A stretch of DNA of 44,907 nucleotides, taken from a virus. Below are positions 410-34,094 of the stretch, one piece after another. How positions within the stretch are numbered: the first letter of the stretch is position 1; each line of letters begins with the position of its first letter. The notes under the pieces were generated by a model. The model was given only the letters and a program-made list of their open reading frames with translations, made no database searches and was not told where the DNA came from. The stretch lies in the IMG/VR virus record IMGVR_UViG_3300036846_000760, positions 1 through 44,907 of that record; one strand, written 5' to 3'. Made by a program: the position numbers and the translations under genes.

Positions 410-594
410 CCGCCCACACGCTCTCCCGGAAGAAACACGATCAGGTCATCGCAAATATGCGATTCCTGCTTGAGGGCGATGTCGCACCGGACAGAACGTT
501 GTCGTATATCGCTCGCAAGTATGTCCTGAGCGCAGCCGATCGGGCTTACATGGAGGGCGTCATTCAGAAGCTCTTGACGGAGTTAAGTAAATGA
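406..594 (+). CDS. hypothetical protein, 62 aa
   Basis: Starts at ATG 406 inside the ATGA overlap with the upstream gene, after a GAGGGGG stretch; the in-frame start at 328 would lie wholly inside that gene and is rejected. The 62-residue product (MTAHTLSRKKHDQVIANMRF...) is charged and probably helical, with no membrane segment. It ends in an ATGA overlap with the HTH-like gene at 591. Function unknown. Confidence 0.55.
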   Translation: MTAHTLSRKKHDQVIANMRFLLEGDVAPDRTLSYIARKYVLSAADRAYMEGVIQKLLTELSK

Positions 595-821
595 CCGCCT
601 CCCAGCTCCGCGTCATCCGAAGCCGCCTCGAGCTGACCGGCGATGAGTTCGCCAAGCTGGTCGGGGCCGCCGACGCCCGCAGCGTGCGCCGCTGGGAGGC
701 CGGGACCAACGATGTCCCCGGCTCGACCCGGCAACTGCTGAAATTGTTAACCGCCATGTCGCCGGCCGAGTTGAGGCGGGCAATGGCAACCCTTCTGGCC
801 GATTACAAGGAATCCAAATGA
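591..821 (+). CDS. small helix-turn-helix protein (XRE-like)
   Basis: The 76-residue product reads like a single XRE-type helix-turn-helix: residues about 3-40 contain SRLELTGDEFAKLVGAAD followed by a recognition-helix-like RSVRRWEAGTNDVPG, and the rest is a short helical tail. The sequence 'RRWEAG...VPG' is typical of phage and plasmid transcription regulators that sense a DNA operator. It overlaps both neighbours by 4 bases. Its targets cannot be told; the repeat-rich region at 1282-1624 lies just downstream and is one candidate. Domain assignment is from motif resemblance. Confidence 0.65.
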   Translation: MTASQLRVIRSRLELTGDEFAKLVGAADARSVRRWEAGTNDVPGSTRQLLKLLTAMSPAELRRAMATLLADYKESK

Positions 822-1194: not shown

Positions 1195-1222
1195 AGGAGG
1201 CCATTCCAGGGGCCTCCTTTTT
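1195..1222 (+). terminator. rho-independent terminator
   Basis: AGGAGGCC (1195-1202) pairs perfectly with GGCCTCCT (1211-1218) around an 8-nt loop and is followed by a T-run (1218-1222). This is a classical intrinsic terminator for the rightward small-gene cluster and isolates the control region that follows. Confidence 0.8.
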
Positions 1223-1281: not shown

Positions 1282-1445
1282 CCTACGAAAGCGGCATCAG
1301 TCACGGGTTAGTCACGGACTCCGTGACTAAATACGTTTCGTAGGACCCGGCCAACCATGCCTTAAGTCATTGATGTTTCACGTGAAACAGCGCGTAATAC
1401 TGGCGAAGGGTCTTGCCCTGCGTCACGGCAGATGGGCCTACGAAA
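1282..1445. promoter_or_regulatory. three copies of CCTACGAAA, candidate operator
   Basis: The 9-mer CCTACGAAA occurs at 1282-1290 and 1437-1445, and as its complement TTTCGTAGG at 1336-1344. A fourth copy (TTTCGTAGG, 33859-33867) lies in the leader of the CI-like repressor gene, and a near match (CCTACAAAT) at 33894-33902. Clustering and sharing with the repressor region suggest a phage regulator binds both places. This is inference from repetition, with no known motif matched; the scan of the window was by eye. Confidence 0.45.
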
Positions 1446-1668: not shown

Positions 1669-1707
1669 ACGCCGCATAACGACCAGGAGATTACCCATAT
1701 GCGGCGT
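1669..1707 (+). promoter_or_regulatory. hairpin enclosing the hicB-like ribosome site and start codon
   Basis: ACGCCGCATA (1669-1678) and TATGCGGCGT (1698-1707) are perfect complements. The AGGAG ribosome site (1685-1689) falls in the loop and the ATG (1699-1701) in the 3' arm. In mRNA this could restrict initiation; as DNA it is a 10-bp inverted repeat that the encoded antitoxin-like protein might bind. Both readings are inference. Confidence 0.5.
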
Positions 1708-2118
1708 TTTTACCCGGGCGTGATCACCGCCCACGATGACCAGTTCAACCTCGCGTTCCCTGACCTCCCAGACCTCCCAGATACCGAAGCCGCCACCCTC
1801 GTAGAATGCTTGCTCCAGGCCGAGCGCAATCTCGCCGACTACCTCGAGACCCGCCCCAGCCGCTACCCCCTGCCGCCGCCCTCGAGCCTCCACCGGCTCC
1901 GCACCACCGTCGGTGCCCTGGCCGGGCTGGTCACGGTGGTGATGATCCCGCCGCTCCGCCGGGGGCGGAAGGCCCGCATCACCATTGCCATCGACCAGGA
2001 GCTGCTCGTCAGCCTCGACGCCGCCGCCGGTCCATTAGGCCGGTCGCGCTGGCTGGCGGAGGCGGCCGAGGACAAGCTGGCCCAGACCTATGCCGCGAAA
2101 GGGGATACGCCGCTATGA
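1699..2118 (+). CDS. hicB: HicB-like antitoxin with RHH-type tail, orphan
   Basis: The 139-residue product has a HicB-like N-terminal half (residues about 1-52: RRFYPGVITAHDDQFNLAF... then a Leu/Glu-rich helix), a Pro/Leu-rich linker, and a C-terminal segment (about 89-131: GRKARITIAIDQELLVSLDAA... RSRWLAEAAEDKL) resembling a ribbon-helix-helix DNA-binding domain. HicB proteins neutralise HicA mRNA interferases and repress their own promoter. No HicA-like dsRBD toxin (about 60 residues) is recognisable upstream or downstream, so this may be a phage regulator or anti-toxin decoy. The start is at ATG 1699 after AGGAG; it overlaps the next gene by 4 bases. Confidence 0.65.
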   Translation: MRRFYPGVITAHDDQFNLAFPDLPDLPDTEAATLVECLLQAERNLADYLETRPSRYPLPPPSSLHRLRTTVGALAGLVTVVMIPPLRRGRKARITIAIDQELLVSLDAAAGPLGRSRWLAEAAEDKLAQTYAAKGDTPL

Positions 2119-15359: not shown

Positions 15360-17846
15360 CTAGTTGGGCCGCATACCCGCAGGCATAGGCGTGGCCGTGA
15401 CCGGCGACGGTGCACTGGATTGTGGGGGCGGCGGCGCAGGCGCATTACTCGCGCCCTGCGGGCCTTGCGCCTGCGGGATACCCGCGCCGGGTGGTCCCAT
15501 CGAGGCGCCGGGCTTCATCCCGTTCTGGGCGGTGATCGACGGCATGCCATCGGCGACCGCCTCCTCCAGATTGACCCGGTCGTCCAGCCGCGTGATGGCC
15601 TGCTGCGCCAGGAATTGCGGCTTGATGCCGGGGATTTGCATCAGGATCGGCGCGAGGCGCTCGAAGTTCTGCAGCTCCAGCGCCTGATTGGGCCGCCCGC
15701 TGCTGCCTGCCTCGATCGAGAGATAGACATCGCGCGCCACCTCCGCCTTGGTCAGCGTCGGCCACACGGCGCCGGGACCGACGATGTTCTTCACGGTCTC
15801 TTCGCTGACATTGAGCAGCAGGATTTGCCCACCGGCGTGGGCCATCTCGGTCAGCGTGTCGTCGATGTCGTCGATCGCCGATCCCGATTGTCCCGCCTTC
15901 ACGGTCGCGGCGTAGTTCGCCTCGGTCGCAGTGCCGCTGCTCATACCGCCGAGATCGGCCTGCTGATCGCCGATGACGCGCAGCAGATCCTGAAACACGG
16001 GGTTAACCTCGTATAAATTTGGATCGACCGGCACACCTTTCACCGCCATCAGAACATCGTTGATGTTCTGTCCCGGCTGCAGCGCACTGACGCTGATCAA
16101 CGCATTGACGGGGTGTGTCTGGAAGGCATCCAGGTCGTCTTGCGACAATGTGCCTTCCGCGTATGCCGTCTTCGGACGGTTGGCGAACCGATGTTCGCGC
16201 AGACCCTGGCGCATGCGGTTCAGCTCGAGCTGCATCGGACGGATGAGTTTCACGTCGGACGGCGGATAGACCTCACCAACGGTCTCGTTGAACGCGACGA
16301 CATACCACGGCCAGAAACGCTCGGTATAATCGGGCTCCTTCGGCTCTTCCAGGAAATCGGGCCAACCGTCGCACATCACATAGCGCAGCCCGTCGCGGCG
16401 ATTGTACAACTCCCACACCAAGCAGTGCCCTTTGTCCCCCGGCGACACCGCCGCGTCGTTCGCACCGCTGCTGCGGCCCTGCCAGATCGCGCGCGCCCGT
16501 TCGTAGTCGGTGCCGGTATCAGTGCGATCATAGCCGGTGTAGCAGCTCCGCACGTCGACACCGTAGGTCTCCATGACTTCGTTGGGACTGAGACAAAATT
16601 CCTCCGCCACCCAATCGCAGCCTAAAAACCCGCGCAGTTGTACACAGCGCGGATCGGGAATGATGGCCGTCGATTTCGGATAGCCAAACTGCAATCCCTC
16701 GCGCAGCACAATGTCCTGCTGGTTTGTCAGCGACGACAACGTCAGCCGGAGCTGTTCGACCTCGGCGCTATCGGGCGGGATGTCGTCGTCGGCGATGCCC
16801 GCGGAGATGCGCTGCACCAGTTCAAGCTGCTGCTGCACGTCGGCGATGCGCCCGTCGAGATCGGGGCTGCGTCCCATGACGCGCTGGAACCCGAGCCGTA
16901 CCCAACCGACGCCCGCGGTTGCGGCACGGCGCACCACCAGCTTCATCATGGTCTTGAAACCCTGTTGCTGCTCATCGATCTCATACTGGTAGAGCAGCTC
17001 GAGGGTGCGGGCGATACGGTTGAGCGTCTTGGTCTGCTGCTGCACGTTCTTGGCGTCAGCGACGATCGCTTCTGCTTCGATCACATCCGAATCAGGCGGA
17101 GCCTGCGGCAGCCCCATCATGCCGCCGAGACCACCACCGCCGCCGGGCAGGGGCGCCGCCGGGGGCGATCCCTGCAGCGGCGGCAATCCTTGCTGTGGAC
17201 CGGCCGACAACGGAAACGGACTCGCGCCGGGAAAGATACTCCCCGCCGCCGTCGGTTGGCCGAGACCGGCAATTGCCGACGGGTCCACGCCCATCTTCGC
17301 CGCCATCAGGCCCAGCGTCACGCCCATCGCGGCCTTTTGCTGGGCATCCTGTGCGGCTTGGGCCTGCGCCAGCGTCTGCTGTGCACCCTGCAACTGCTCC
17401 AGCGTGCCATCCCACGCGGTCGACAGGATACGCTGACGCTTGCGCGCAACCGCCTTCGGGTTTTTCGCATACACCGCCGCCACGCGGCCTTGGATGTGCC
17501 GCAGCACGATGTTGGCGACATAGAGGTCGTCTTTCCCATCGTTGAACGCCGCGACCTTGGTCTCTTCCGGCCACTGCTTCCCGGCGGCGAATTTCTGATC
17601 CTTCTCCATCTGCCGGAAGACTTTGTCCCAGTGCCCCTTGGCCTGCTTGACCATGTCGCAGAACGACGCCACCAATGCTTTGCGCTTGTCGTCTATCTCC
17701 GGCTTTTCGCGGGACATGCGCTTGTCGGTCTGCGGCGGCTGCGGCGGCTGCAGAAATTGCGCAGTCTGAAAATCGGCGACCGGTTGCTGCATCGGATCAC
17801 CGGGCATCGGTGCGCCCAGCGGGGGCTGGCCCATCATGTCGGACAT
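15360..17846 (-). CDS. portal protein
   Basis: The 828-residue product has a disordered Met/Pro/Gln-rich N-terminus, then the portal core (DKVFRQMEKDQKFAAGKQWP at about 75-95; YVANIVLRHIQGRVAAVYAK), a Gly/Pro-rich insert at about 200-250, a crown region with coiled coil, and a C-terminal Pro/Ala tail ending AGMRPN. The length and motif order are those of large P22-like podovirus portals. ATG 17846 overlaps the terminase stop (TGATG) after a GGAGG site, so the TTG at 17852 is not needed. The portal forms the dodecameric ring through which terminase pumps DNA. Confidence 0.75.
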   Translation of the reverse strand: MSDMMGQPPLGAPMPGDPMQQPVADFQTAQFLQPPQPPQTDKRMSREKPEIDDKRKALVASFCDMVKQAKGHWDKVFRQMEKDQKFAAGKQWPEETKVAAFNDGKDDLYVANIVLRHIQGRVAAVYAKNPKAVARKRQRILSTAWDGTLEQLQGAQQTLAQAQAAQDAQQKAAMGVTLGLMAAKMGVDPSAIAGLGQPTAAGSIFPGASPFPLSAGPQQGLPPLQGSPPAAPLPGGGGGLGGMMGLPQAPPDSDVIEAEAIVADAKNVQQQTKTLNRIARTLELLYQYEIDEQQQGFKTMMKLVVRRAATAGVGWVRLGFQRVMGRSPDLDGRIADVQQQLELVQRISAGIADDDIPPDSAEVEQLRLTLSSLTNQQDIVLREGLQFGYPKSTAIIPDPRCVQLRGFLGCDWVAEEFCLSPNEVMETYGVDVRSCYTGYDRTDTGTDYERARAIWQGRSSGANDAAVSPGDKGHCLVWELYNRRDGLRYVMCDGWPDFLEEPKEPDYTERFWPWYVVAFNETVGEVYPPSDVKLIRPMQLELNRMRQGLREHRFANRPKTAYAEGTLSQDDLDAFQTHPVNALISVSALQPGQNINDVLMAVKGVPVDPNLYEVNPVFQDLLRVIGDQQADLGGMSSGTATEANYAATVKAGQSGSAIDDIDDTLTEMAHAGGQILLLNVSEETVKNIVGPGAVWPTLTKAEVARDVYLSIEAGSSGRPNQALELQNFERLAPILMQIPGIKPQFLAQQAITRLDDRVNLEEAVADGMPSITAQNGMKPGASMGPPGAGIPQAQGPQGASNAPAPPPPQSSAPSPVTATPMPAGMRPN

Positions 17847-19414
17847 CACCAACCTCCGTTGCGGGTGCGTTGTTCTTGTTCACGTCGTTTGGTGTCGGCC
17901 TTCAGCCAACCCAGCGTGCCGGTCTCGGGCGGCGGTTTGGCGGCGCGGCGCGGTGCGGGCGCGATCACCATGTCGAGACCGAGACCGACCCACGCCAGCG
18001 CATCGACAAAGTCGTCGTGCGTCGCGAATGGAAACTTGAGCAGCTCCGCGCGCGCCTCCGACCACCACGGCGCATAGGCCGGGAAATACACCTTGCCCAT
18101 CGCCATGCGCCCGCGCACGCCCTGCGCGCGACTCTGCTTGTCCTTGCTCGGGGTCATCTCAACGACCGACGCAAAGATGCTGCGCTCCAACATGCGCTTG
18201 CGCAAAAACGGCCCGATCGACTTGCTGATATGGCCTTCCTCCGCCCACCACGTCAGCGGCTTGTACCGCGCCATGCGATCGATCATCGCCTCGACCACGA
18301 TGTCGGTCGCAGCCCGCGCCCAAAACAAATCGTCGTGGACCCAGATGTTGCCGTCCTGATCGACGCCGATCGTCATCAGTACGGTCTTGTCGCGTTGCTG
18401 TTTGATTGAGACCGCATGATCGGAGGCGCAATACCACCGAAGCTCGTCGTTGGGCGGACGCTCGCGCCGCTGATAGACGCGTATTTTATCGGCAGAGAAA
18501 AAGTTGCCGCTCTCCGGCGTCGGCGAGCCCTGGTAGAGCGCCTGGAACCCGCGCGGGTCGGCGGCGCGCAGCTCCTCCAGATATTCCGCCGGAAACCGCT
18601 CCGGCCACAGCGCCTCGCCGGGTTGACGCCCCAATACGTCGTCGTCGCCGGCGAGGGCAGGAAGGTCGATGATCTTCCAGCGTGGCCCTTCGACGGCGCT
18701 GTAGTTGGCGTTGAGCGGATCGGTCAGCCGCCCGACGATGTCGTCCTCGTGCCATCTCGTAGAAATAATAATAATCCAGCCCTTGTGCGTAGCGAGACGC
18801 GTCTTCGCCACCTGTAAAAACCACGTCCACAGACGTTCGCGGATGGTCGGACTGTCGGCCTCGCTGCGGTCCTTGATCGGGTCATCGAGGATCAGGCCGA
18901 CGCTGCCGCGCCCGGCCAGGGCGGAGCCGCGTCCGACGAAGAACACCTTGCCGCCGTCCGTCGTCTCGATGCGGTCGACCGACGCGGTGTTGAGTTTCAC
19001 GTTAGGAAAGATTTGCCCATAGATCGGGTCTTCGATGATGGCGCGCGCCTCGCGCCCGAAATCGTAACTGAATTTCTCGCCGTAGCTGGCGATGATCAGA
19101 CTATCGGCGGGATGCCGACCGACAAACCACGCCGGAAACATACGCGAGGTGAGTTGCGATTTTCCATGCCGGGGACCGACGTTGATGATGAGGCGGCTGA
19201 TCTTGCCCGCCTCGACCTGCTCCAACGCCGCGGCGATGGCGCGGTGATGCCGCGCCACGATGTACTGCGACTTGTCGCTGTCCCACGGCGCATCGGCGTC
19301 GGGCATCAGCAGGCGCGTGAACGAGATCAGATCGTCACGCGCCTCCGCTGCCGCCTTACGTCTCTTCAGCGCCGCCAGATATCTTACTTCGTCCGATGTA
19401 AGGGTCTGGTTCAC
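17846..19414 (-). CDS. terL: terminase large subunit
   Basis: The 522-residue product has an N-terminal ATPase with Walker A GPRHGKS (residues 80-86), Walker B LILDDP (174-179) and a coupling motif STRWHEDD (about 217-224). The C-terminal nuclease of RNase H fold starts near CASDHAVSIKQQ (about 335), and ends with acidic residues in DDFVDALAWVGLGLD (about 470-485). It translocates and cuts DNA during packaging. The start is GTG 19414, overlapping the upstream stop as GTGA. The small subunit is not adjacent; a candidate lies at 27460. Confidence 0.9.
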   Translation of the reverse strand: MNQTLTSDEVRYLAALKRRKAAAEARDDLISFTRLLMPDADAPWDSDKSQYIVARHHRAIAAALEQVEAGKISRLIINVGPRHGKSQLTSRMFPAWFVGRHPADSLIIASYGEKFSYDFGREARAIIEDPIYGQIFPNVKLNTASVDRIETTDGGKVFFVGRGSALAGRGSVGLILDDPIKDRSEADSPTIRERLWTWFLQVAKTRLATHKGWIIIISTRWHEDDIVGRLTDPLNANYSAVEGPRWKIIDLPALAGDDDVLGRQPGEALWPERFPAEYLEELRAADPRGFQALYQGSPTPESGNFFSADKIRVYQRRERPPNDELRWYCASDHAVSIKQQRDKTVLMTIGVDQDGNIWVHDDLFWARAATDIVVEAMIDRMARYKPLTWWAEEGHISKSIGPFLRKRMLERSIFASVVEMTPSKDKQSRAQGVRGRMAMGKVYFPAYAPWWSEARAELLKFPFATHDDFVDALAWVGLGLDMVIAPAPRRAAKPPPETGTLGWLKADTKRREQEQRTRNGGW

Positions 19415-31970: not shown

Positions 31971-33107
31971 TTATTCCGCGGCCTCCGGCATTGTCTCGCG
32001 GAAGTCCACGGCGGCGCGTGTGTCGCTGGGAATGTGTACAGCGTAGTGCCTGAGCACGACTTCGACCGTGTCGCACAGCACGTCGGCGACATGCGGAATC
32101 GGCACGCCCGCCTGTACGGCCAGGGTCGCCCAGGTGCGGCGCAGGTCGTGCTTGCCGGTCTTCGGGTATGGGGTCTTGCGGACCCACGCGCGGAACGATT
32201 TGGCGATGACGCCGTCGCTGTCGAGGACGTAGTCCGATTTGCGTTCGCCGTAGGCGCGCTTGAGGATCGGCATCAGGCGTTTGGAGATGGCGATCACGCC
32301 GCGCCGCTTCTTGGTGACGGTCCTCCCCGGCGCGCGGAAATCAATCGTGCCGGAATGGAAATCGACGCGGTCCCACGTCAGGCCCTCGATGGCTTCCGTG
32401 CGTGCCGCCGTGTCGAGGGCAATGCAGACGAAACGCGTGATGCGCGACAGTCGTTTGCTGCGTTTCCTGCGGGCCGTATGTTCCAGGGCGAGCTGATGGA
32501 AGTGTGCTTCTTCGTTGCGCTTGAGATAGTAGCCGCGCCCTGCCTTGCCTCTGGGGATTTTGAATTTCGGGATGTCCTCGAGTTTCAGACCCAATTTCCT
32601 GGCCAGCTTAGCGTCGTCGCGGACATGGTAGAACGCGGCGCGCAGTATCGAGAGTTCGCGATTGGACGACGTGGCGTTGACGCCGTTCGTCTTGAACATG
32701 GTCTGCCTGACGCGAGCGATCCTGAAGTTCTCGATCACGCGCGGCTCGGCGCGTTCGATCTTGTAGTTGCGCAAAGCGTTCGCATCGATTTCGCCGATGC
32801 GCCTGTCGCCGAGATAGAGCTGCAGCACCTTCAGGTTTTCGAGAGTGGTGTTATAGTCGCCGTCGCGGCCCAGTATTTCAGCGCGGTACTCGGCGATGAT
32901 GTCGGAGACGAGCGGTGAAGCGGTGATTTCGGCGATCATTTTGTCCGCGCGTTTCCAGTCCGCGAAATATGCCTCTGCCTCAGTGCGATCTTTGCAACGC
33001 GTTGACTGGCTGCGCGTGAGGTATCGTTTCTCGGTTTTTTCTGTCCACACGATTGCCCAGTAACCGGTGTCGGCGAGCTTGAGTTCGGGGTTGAGTTTGT
33101 CTGACAT
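31971..33107 (-). CDS. int: tyrosine recombinase, phage integrase
   Basis: The 378-residue product has an N-terminal arm-type/SAM-like part (about 60-170) and a catalytic domain with R236 (DTAARTEAIEGL), lysines K267-K268 in the beta-hairpin, H320-DLR-R323 (KHDLRRTWATL), and Y355 (VVLRHYAVH). The usual second His (as in LGH) is replaced by Asp346 in VLCDT, so the catalytic set is R-K-H-R-D-Y. It integrates and excises phage DNA at att sites. ATG 33107 is the chosen start; a longer frame to 33227 overlaps the excisionase-like gene. A terminator follows. Confidence 0.9.
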   Translation of the reverse strand: MSDKLNPELKLADTGYWAIVWTEKTEKRYLTRSQSTRCKDRTEAEAYFADWKRADKMIAEITASPLVSDIIAEYRAEILGRDGDYNTTLENLKVLQLYLGDRRIGEIDANALRNYKIERAEPRVIENFRIARVRQTMFKTNGVNATSSNRELSILRAAFYHVRDDAKLARKLGLKLEDIPKFKIPRGKAGRGYYLKRNEEAHFHQLALEHTARRKRSKRLSRITRFVCIALDTAARTEAIEGLTWDRVDFHSGTIDFRAPGRTVTKKRRGVIAISKRLMPILKRAYGERKSDYVLDSDGVIAKSFRAWVRKTPYPKTGKHDLRRTWATLAVQAGVPIPHVADVLCDTVEVVLRHYAVHIPSDTRAAVDFRETMPEAAE

Positions 33108-33280
33108 GATGTTGTTAGTCCTTCGATGTATTGCGTGAGGTCGATCAGAGGTATGCGCACCGGGCGTCCCGGCAGAAAGCGCAGCAGCTTCTGCGATCTC
33201 AGCCGGTGAACGGTACGCACCGAGCACCGCAGGATCAGCGCGGCCTCGGCTTGGGTGACCAGTGCGATAGGATCAGACAT
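32936..33280 (-). CDS. xis: excisionase-like HTH protein overlapping integrase
   Basis: The first 55 residues (ALVTQAEAALILRCSVRTVH..., then FLPGRPVRIPLIDLTQYIEG) are a MerR/HTH_17-type winged helix typical of excisionases, which bend att DNA to direct excision. The frame runs on for another 57 residues (TTSCQTNSTPNSSSP...) in a different frame from the integrase N-terminus, overlapping it by 172 bases. That tail may be a by-product of overlap. The gene is 9 bases past the repressor stop, so all three leftward genes probably share one transcript. Confidence 0.7.
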   Translation of the reverse strand: MSDPIALVTQAEAALILRCSVRTVHRLRSQKLLRFLPGRPVRIPLIDLTQYIEGLTTSCQTNSTPNSSSPTPVTGQSCGQKKPRNDTSRAASQRVAKIALRQRHISRTGNARTK

Positions 33281-33289
33281 CGCGCGGGC

Positions 33290-33817
33290 TTATCTGTGTT
33301 TCAGCGCGGCCTGCACAGCCTCGCGTTTTCTGTCGCGGTGATTGCTGATCAGACCGGCGATGGTGATGGCGAGATCGAGGCTGACGACCGAGCGGAGCTG
33401 CAGCAGCACGGTGTCGGTGCCGCTGATGGCCTTGATCTCCAGCTCGGGGCTCGCCTGCTCGACGTGTGAGGACATCGCATGCGGCGCGAGTTCCGCAACT
33501 GGGATCTCGAGGGCAGCCGCCAGTTTGGTCAAGTTGGCGTGATCGGGCATGACGAGACCGCGCACGTAGGTCGAGATGCGGTCCTTGCCGACCGGGTGCT
33601 CGTAGCCCTTCTTGTCGGTGCGGTGTTCGTTCCAGACGCGCCGCGCCAGCTCGGCCTGTGACCAGCCGCGCTCTATGAGGGCGTGCTGGAGCCTGCGTGC
33701 AAATTCCTGGCGGGGCGTCATCATCGGGGTTTCGAGGTGCGGCACCGGCGGCTCGACCGGAGTCGAGCGTGGTGGCGGCGGCGGGGGGGTATTTTTGGTG
33801 GTGCGGCGCGAAGCCAT
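33290..33817 (-). CDS. CI-like repressor with XRE helix-turn-helix
   Basis: The 175-residue product has a disordered Pro-rich N-terminus (residues 1-32), an XRE HTH (FARRLQHALIERGWSQAELA at 39-58; recognition region KDRISTYVRGLVMPD at 78-92) with an unusual insertion (about 62-78, VWNEHRTDKKGYEHPVG) between the two helices, and a C-terminal part suited to oligomerisation (LQLRSVVSLDLAITIAGLI). No LexA-like S24 protease domain is seen, so induction may not be by self-cleavage. It faces the Cro-like gene across a 277-bp gap. ATG 33817 follows AAAGGAA. Confidence 0.75.
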   Translation of the reverse strand: MASRRTTKNTPPPPPPRSTPVEPPVPHLETPMMTPRQEFARRLQHALIERGWSQAELARRVWNEHRTDKKGYEHPVGKDRISTYVRGLVMPDHANLTKLAAALEIPVAELAPHAMSSHVEQASPELEIKAISGTDTVLLQLRSVVSLDLAITIAGLISNHRDRKREAVQAALKHR

Positions 33818-34094
33818 TGCAAGCGTTCCTTTGGTGGTGGTTTGGGCCGTATGACTGATTTCGTAGGGACATCACCACAAAATCAATCACACACCTACAA
33901 ATACGATCACGCCATGAACGCGTAAAGTCAAAACGCGACAAAAGGCGACAAAATCGACTCATCTCATGGTTTTCGCGGTGGACAAACTACAGGGTTGCCG
34001 CCTAGCTTTCAGTCGATTTCCTACGCCGATTCGCTGGGAGCGTCGAACGAAGCCGCAGCCCAGAGTAGAACAGCATCCTTAGGTAGGTGCTCCC
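33818..34094. promoter_or_regulatory. lysogeny switch region between repressor and Cro-like genes
   Basis: This 277-bp divergent gap holds candidate operators: TTTCGTAGG (33859-33867, shared with three sites at 1282-1445), two tandem CGACAAAA copies (33936-33943, 33946-33953) and a 9-bp inverted pair AAATCGACT (33951-33959) / AGTCGATTT (34011-34019). On the minus strand TTGACT near 33930 could be the -35 of the repressor promoter. No strong -10 box was identified for the rightward promoter. Confidence 0.55.

Follow-up and report, generated by a model that had tools for sequence, protein, structure and literature searches.

A parS site is commonly regarded as the mark of a chromosome, or of a plasmid with its own ParAB. 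In the chromosomal ParABS system, parS acts together with ParB as a CTP clamp, with ParA and with SMC. ParB of Caulobacter spreads from parS as a CTP clamp, for which a bound TetR is a roadblock (PMC7053999). Caulobacter loses fitness when an additional parS is placed beyond a zone that surrounds the native cluster (PMC5815017), and in Pseudomonas parS must be near oriC and a distant extra parS likewise lowers fitness (PMC5098823). Given these findings on ectopic sites, a parS would be a liability for an integrating phage unless it were gated or well placed.

Herein, we describe a parS site in a stretch of phage DNA of 44,907 bases (the window, meaning the whole stretch analysed). The nearest precedent is the parS mimicry of SGI1, in which sites mimicking the parS of the IncC plasmid are bound by that plasmid's ParB and stabilise the element (PMC10954446). 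The principle is the same and the partner is different. In both cases a mobile element carries the parS of another replicon but not its ParABS, and SGI1 has been shown to bind the ParB of that replicon and to destabilise it; unlike SGI1, which has a plasmid parS in two copies and an accessory protein, Sci, the window has a chromosomal parS in a single copy and no accessory protein that could be recognised. The window pairs the chromosomal consensus with the lack of a detected ParB.

The site is identical to the consensus of chromosomal ParABS systems, but it stands alone on a phage in which no parB was detected, outside any oriC-proximal cluster. A centromere on a phage genome is also found in RedRock and its relatives (PMC7157519) and in P1. 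RedRock-type phages, however, encode their own ParA and ParB and have private parS repeats; in RedRock, parS consists of 8-bp direct repeats and there is no integrase (PMC7157519), whereas the window phage has an integrase. Since ParB was tested for in the window and not found, the window is not a member of the RedRock-type ParABS class. The phage proteins with a ParB-CTPase fold (PMC12704722) are a further case in which phages meet the ParB world, but that survey concerns proteins, and the window and the tested parS phages of the terL group described below show no PF02195 protein. No report of an orphan or chromosomal parS in phages was found in the open-licence literature outside bioRxiv, and earlier reports may exist.

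The phage and its parS site

The window is a virus record with genes for terminase, portal, head, integrase, exonuclease, single-strand-DNA-binding protein and an HTH repressor. Given the presence of terminase, portal and head proteins, a tyrosine integrase and an Xre-type repressor, it is a temperate tailed phage. As both an integrase and an HTH repressor are encoded, an integrated lysogen is plausible and a permanent episome is not required. The genes that matter here are as follows.

591-821, plus strand: small HTH protein, Aca2/YdiL-like (weak match; Pfam PF08965, 7.5e-5, just below cut-off)
1699-2118, plus strand: HicB-like protein with a ribbon-helix-helix-like C-terminus, the first gene downstream of parS (phrog_497, 1.2e-9; Pfam HicB_lk_antitox, 2.1e-4, below cut-off)
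17846-19414, minus strand: terminase large subunit, TerL (phrog_38, 9.2e-104)
31971-33227, minus strand: tyrosine integrase (phrog_1, 1.1e-30; PF00589, 3.6e-10)
33290-33817, minus strand: HTH (Xre/CI-like) repressor gene (Pfam HTH_3, 1.3e-5, over cut-off)

The Aca2/YdiL family includes anti-CRISPR-associated regulators. The next ORF after the small HTH gene (818-1123) had no Pfam match, no HicA was seen beside the HicB-like gene, and neither a tRNA nor an Rfam RNA was found in the window. When the contig ends were joined, a 106-codon open frame, small and coiled-coil-like, spanned the junction with only a few codons past the join, a weak sign compatible with a complete permuted genome. The relatives of TerL and the integrase, which included a Rhizobiales prophage (57% TerL identity) and Rhizobium phage RHph_N65 but also a Microcystis phage, point weakly to Alphaproteobacteria.

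The initial annotation had claimed an exact consensus parS, and this was confirmed: TGTTTCACGTGAAACA occurs at 1374-1389 with 0 mismatches and is the sole match within 3 mismatches when all 44,907 bases are scanned, so that the genome has a single site in one copy. This is the 16-bp palindrome of the chromosomal type at all positions. The expected number of exact matches in the window by chance is 2.6e-6 from base composition and 6.1e-6 under a dinucleotide model. The earlier estimate of about one occurrence per 4 billion bases per strand was right in order of magnitude, with the reservation that TGTTTCACGTGAAACA is a palindrome and its two strands are therefore not independent. The phage had further been described as lacking ParA and ParB. 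For ParB this stood: a PF02195 (ParB_N) search of the window gave no match up to E <= 1, and the parB of a phage-encoded ParABS was accordingly not detected; for ParA it holds for those window ORFs that were scanned with Pfam and PHROGs, among which none was seen.

The control region around parS

The parS site is located in a noncoding region between two ORFs on the plus strand, with a GC content of 55% compared with 61.5% for the whole window. The region and its elements are listed below.

1124-1698, unstranded: 575-bp intergenic control region holding parS, with no credible ORF between ORFs 818-1123 and 1699-2118
1195-1218, plus strand: intrinsic-terminator-like stem followed by a T run
1282-1290, plus strand: CCTACGAAA copy to the left of parS, candidate repressor operator
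1311-1327, unstranded: palindrome GTCACGGACTCCGTGAC, candidate operator
1336-1344, minus strand: inverted CCTACGAAA copy 29 bp to the left of parS, candidate repressor operator
1374-1389, unstranded: perfect chromosomal-type parS, TGTTTCACGTGAAACA, exact 16/16 match
1437-1445, plus strand: CCTACGAAA copy 47 bp to the right of parS, candidate repressor operator
1523-1539, unstranded: palindrome GTCACGGAATACGTGAC, one mismatch
1563-1579, unstranded: palindrome GTCACGGACTCCGTGAC, candidate operator
33859-33867, minus strand: last of the four CCTACGAAA copies, 41 bp upstream of the repressor gene

The window contains 4 copies of CCTACGAAA against 0.17 expected, a number reached in 0/100 shuffles. 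Three of them are found within 165 bp around parS, and the remaining copy is just upstream of the repressor. A clustered motif is thus common to the repressor gene and the parS region, as looked for in a repressor-controlled operator region, and the simplest reading is that the CCTACGAAA repeats are putative operators of the repressor. The GTCACGGANTCCGTGAC palindromes are confined to 1311, 1523 (one mismatch) and 1563 and occur nowhere else in the window. The placing of parS among other repeats, as first annotated, was therefore borne out by both CCTACGAAA and GTCACGGANTCCGTGAC. The stem at 1195-1218 may close the upstream transcription unit (one such stem was found compared with 0.7 expected, no more than chance would give), and no promoter-like match was found in 1100-1750.

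Orphan parS sites in other phages

It had been proposed that conservation of the site be checked in related phages, and the outcome was divided: the site is absent from the phage's own TerL relatives and is kept in a separate marine group. None of the 50 records with TerL relatives of the window phage (up to 49 kb) carries parS within 2 mismatches; the one relative at 94% identity is a fragment of 6.3 kb in which the parS locus is not covered, and all others are at most 63% identical. No close relatives were found via the HicB-like gene or via a 686-aa gene near parS, and blastn of the left 4 kb of the window against named phages gave no relatives. A Rhizobiales bacterium whose prophage TerL is 57% identical has two exact parS sites on a different contig, and exact parS sites occur in 6/10 further Rhizobiales genomes with TerL homologues, never near TerL. 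Given that there is no site in the TerL relatives and none near TerL in the prophage hosts, parS is not ancestral to this TerL family, and among the available data the site is lineage-specific. TGTTTCACGTGAAACA is the sequence that alphaproteobacterial hosts use. As a separate observation, AGTTCCACGTGGAACA, which differs from a parS variant at one position, occurs in a TerL relative of the window phage (41%) at L194:608-623.

Across IMG/VR, at least 120 stretches contain an exact parS, compared with 1 for the reversed palindrome. A fairer comparison is given by the TGTTTCANNTGAAACA pattern, whose cores were compared within a single IMG/VR scan: among the matches listed, 46/80 had the CG core, the next class was CA/TG, a one-step variant of CG, and all remaining cores were rare. 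Intergenic placement, determined with the same crude ORF caller throughout, was seen for 66/146 parS matches and 11/123 matches to sister (control) cores among those listed, a fivefold excess of parS over the controls, and for 8% of random positions. Among the listed parS records of at least 15 kb, 45/50 had no TIGR00180 match and 0/50 had one over the cut-off. A terminase or portal match was carried by 17 of the 45 TIGR00180-free records in a hand cross-count that used two terminase/portal families only and so identified just part of them as phage. The 120 parS loci listed and the window fell into 65 groups by shared genes, with two shared proteins as the threshold. These results suggest that orphan parS sites, mostly without a detected ParB, may be a common and general feature in phages. 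Since genuine phages are mixed in these numbers with possible misbinned host or plasmid pieces, the case is not rested on them.

Mutual comparison of the listed parS loci placed about 25 of them no more than 1.5 kb from a TerL of a single family, that of marine podoviruses akin to pelagiphages HTVC023P and HTVC027P. An unbiased set of 80 relatives (L398-L477) was then fetched by TerL alone, parS being ignored. In 47/80 of this set, an exact 16/16 match to parS is found 35-132 bp upstream of terL, 1/80 has a single mismatch, and 32/80 have no match within two mismatches; 200 permuted palindromes gave 0 exact matches in the same 80 loci. The flanks were compared in 24 parS-bearing representatives, chosen for having parS. 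The adjacent 5, 10, 20 and 40 bp are about 30-40% identical, near the level of unrelated DNA, and the adjacent 5 bp are 32-39% identical among these members. On the TerL tree, the presence of parS tracks clades, with about 6 changes, showing that the marine group inherited parS and retained it unaltered, with occasional loss or gain. Given that the site is exact or gone in the unselected 80, with almost no intermediates, and that the neighbouring DNA has drifted near randomness, exactly these 16 bp appear to be under constraint in the marine terL group. L398 is one example, with parS about 35 bp upstream of terL at 942, and L093:7174-7189 is a further exact parS of this group. In L455 and L457, a second parS-like palindrome, TGTTCCACGTGGAACA, directly follows the exact parS upstream of terL.

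PF02195 was absent from 50 records that comprised 44 contigs with parS (most of them from the terL group, and many of them fragments) and 6 named phage genomes. In the cultured Pelagibacter phage HTVC027P, whose genome shows no PF02195 protein, a 15/16 parS occupies 16412-16427 of the record (L393:15873-15888); it is intergenic, flanked by two short genes, and some 4 kb upstream of terL. A survey of HTVC023P-type phages mentions neither parS nor ParB. In a wider marine set, parS is also found downstream of terL or near portal, and given this variable position no single gene seems to be its object.

Candidate roles of the phage parS

Given that 16 bp are kept exact amid drifted flanks, that they are identical to the loading site of a conserved host protein, and that ParB was undetected in the phage, the sequence at 1374-1389 is probably a functional orphan parS, a loading site for host ParB on a phage without a detected ParB. 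Binding of ParB to this site in the infected or lysogenic cell is highly probable. The proposal in the initial annotation that the phage recruits host ParB is thus well supported in its core and generalises to many phages, while binding itself we infer from the site. The consequences that the annotation attached to it, namely silencing or clustering of DNA, segregation of an extrachromosomal prophage and disturbance of host partitioning, would be further possibilities, and its interpretation as a whole is supported in part. Host ParB would nucleate on the 16-bp palindrome, close as a CTP clamp and slide onto the adjoining phage DNA, where it could connect the phage to host ParA and SMC. As the leading benefit, we tentatively propose that the phage genome, while circular and unintegrated, is positioned and faithfully retained. 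A less likely benefit is that amplified phage DNA titrates ParB and would stall host segregation or division; help with SMC loading or packaging is unlikely, and local control of transcription more so. Several points speak against this reading. With only one ectopic site, little ParB may be recruited; none of the 50 TerL-relative records has the site within 2 mismatches; and an integrated prophage would pay a cost, given the reduced fitness of Caulobacter and Pseudomonas when an additional parS is distant from the native cluster or oriC (PMC5815017, PMC5098823).

The flanking repeats might offer one way around this cost. We consider it a rather slim possibility that the phage parS is bracketed by the operators of the phage's own repressor, which would control the spreading of ParB. 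In the lysogen, bound repressor would form a roadblock on both sides and confine host ParB clamps to about 90 bp, so that the integrated prophage would leave chromosome segregation undisturbed; upon infection or induction, when the repressor is absent, ParB could spread over the free phage genome and reach host ParA and SMC. If this were true, an orphan chromosomal parS would be a general phage route into host chromosome segregation.

Other uses of a ParB-binding site deserve weighing. ParB clamps or loaded SMC might act on an adjoining promoter, or on DNA near the packaging genes. The window parS does lie among candidate repressor operators upstream of the HicB-like gene, the marine-group sites lie 35-132 bp upstream of terL, and ParB-type proteins can repress neighbouring promoters (PMC5521831, PMC11790492). 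However, the window site is about 18 kb from terL, the wider marine set has parS downstream of terL or near portal too, and the stretch 1100-1750 has no promoter-like match, all of which leave local regulation or a packaging aid somewhat doubtful. The variable positions in the marine set would fit a ParB sink, which needs only presence and copy number and no fixed gene context. Dozens of lytic phage genomes would draw ParB off the chromosome together with ParA, SMC and (in alphaproteobacteria) MipZ, so that segregation and division stall to the benefit of the phage. An ectopic parS in Caulobacter disturbs ParB and MipZ foci and cell length (PMC5815017), and amplification of the parS-like sites of SGI1 destabilises the helper plasmid (PMC10954446). 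Such a sink would favour many copies per genome, whereas the window and most records have one, and we regard it as unlikely.

Two explanations dispense with ParB. The site might be an operator for a phage-encoded regulator that resembles parS by convergence only, as it is found among other palindromes with TCACG half sites in a phage that encodes an HTH repressor, an Aca2-like HTH protein and a HicB-like protein. This is improbable, since the match to parS is complete over its 16 positions, the GTCACGGANTCCGTGAC palindromes nearby recur and differ in spacing whereas parS occurs once, and the conserved block in the marine group is the same 16 bp, with no regulator found that is common to that group and the window. 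Even less probable is a chance occurrence or a chimeric assembly with host DNA. The relatives without the site, and the fact that the window was picked from a large scan, would fit this; against it, only 3-6e-6 occurrences are expected per window, and the CCTACGAAA repeat around parS has its only further copy at a distance of 32 kb, upstream of the phage repressor, supporting that the parS region belongs to the phage. An ORF that may span the joined ends, compatible with a complete permuted genome, also speaks against a chimera.

Taken alone, the window site is a strong lead; together with the widespread and group-conserved orphan sites, it is a credible example of parS hijacking by a phage with host ParB as the probable partner. 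That orphan sites are common, and strictly conserved in one marine group, suggests that many phages borrow the chromosome-segregation machinery of the host. If many phages, abundant marine ones included, carry an exact host parS under strong selection, then segregation would be a target or a tool of infection, and ParB ChIP data, parS surveys and phage biology would merit a second look. The role of ParB on a small, fast-replicating genome would then be directly addressable through these 16 bases.

Multiple sites were also seen in the collection. Three contigs with distant TerL homologues (L017, L044 and L053) have 3 to 5 exact parS sites within about 1 kb and resemble a parS cluster on a phage.
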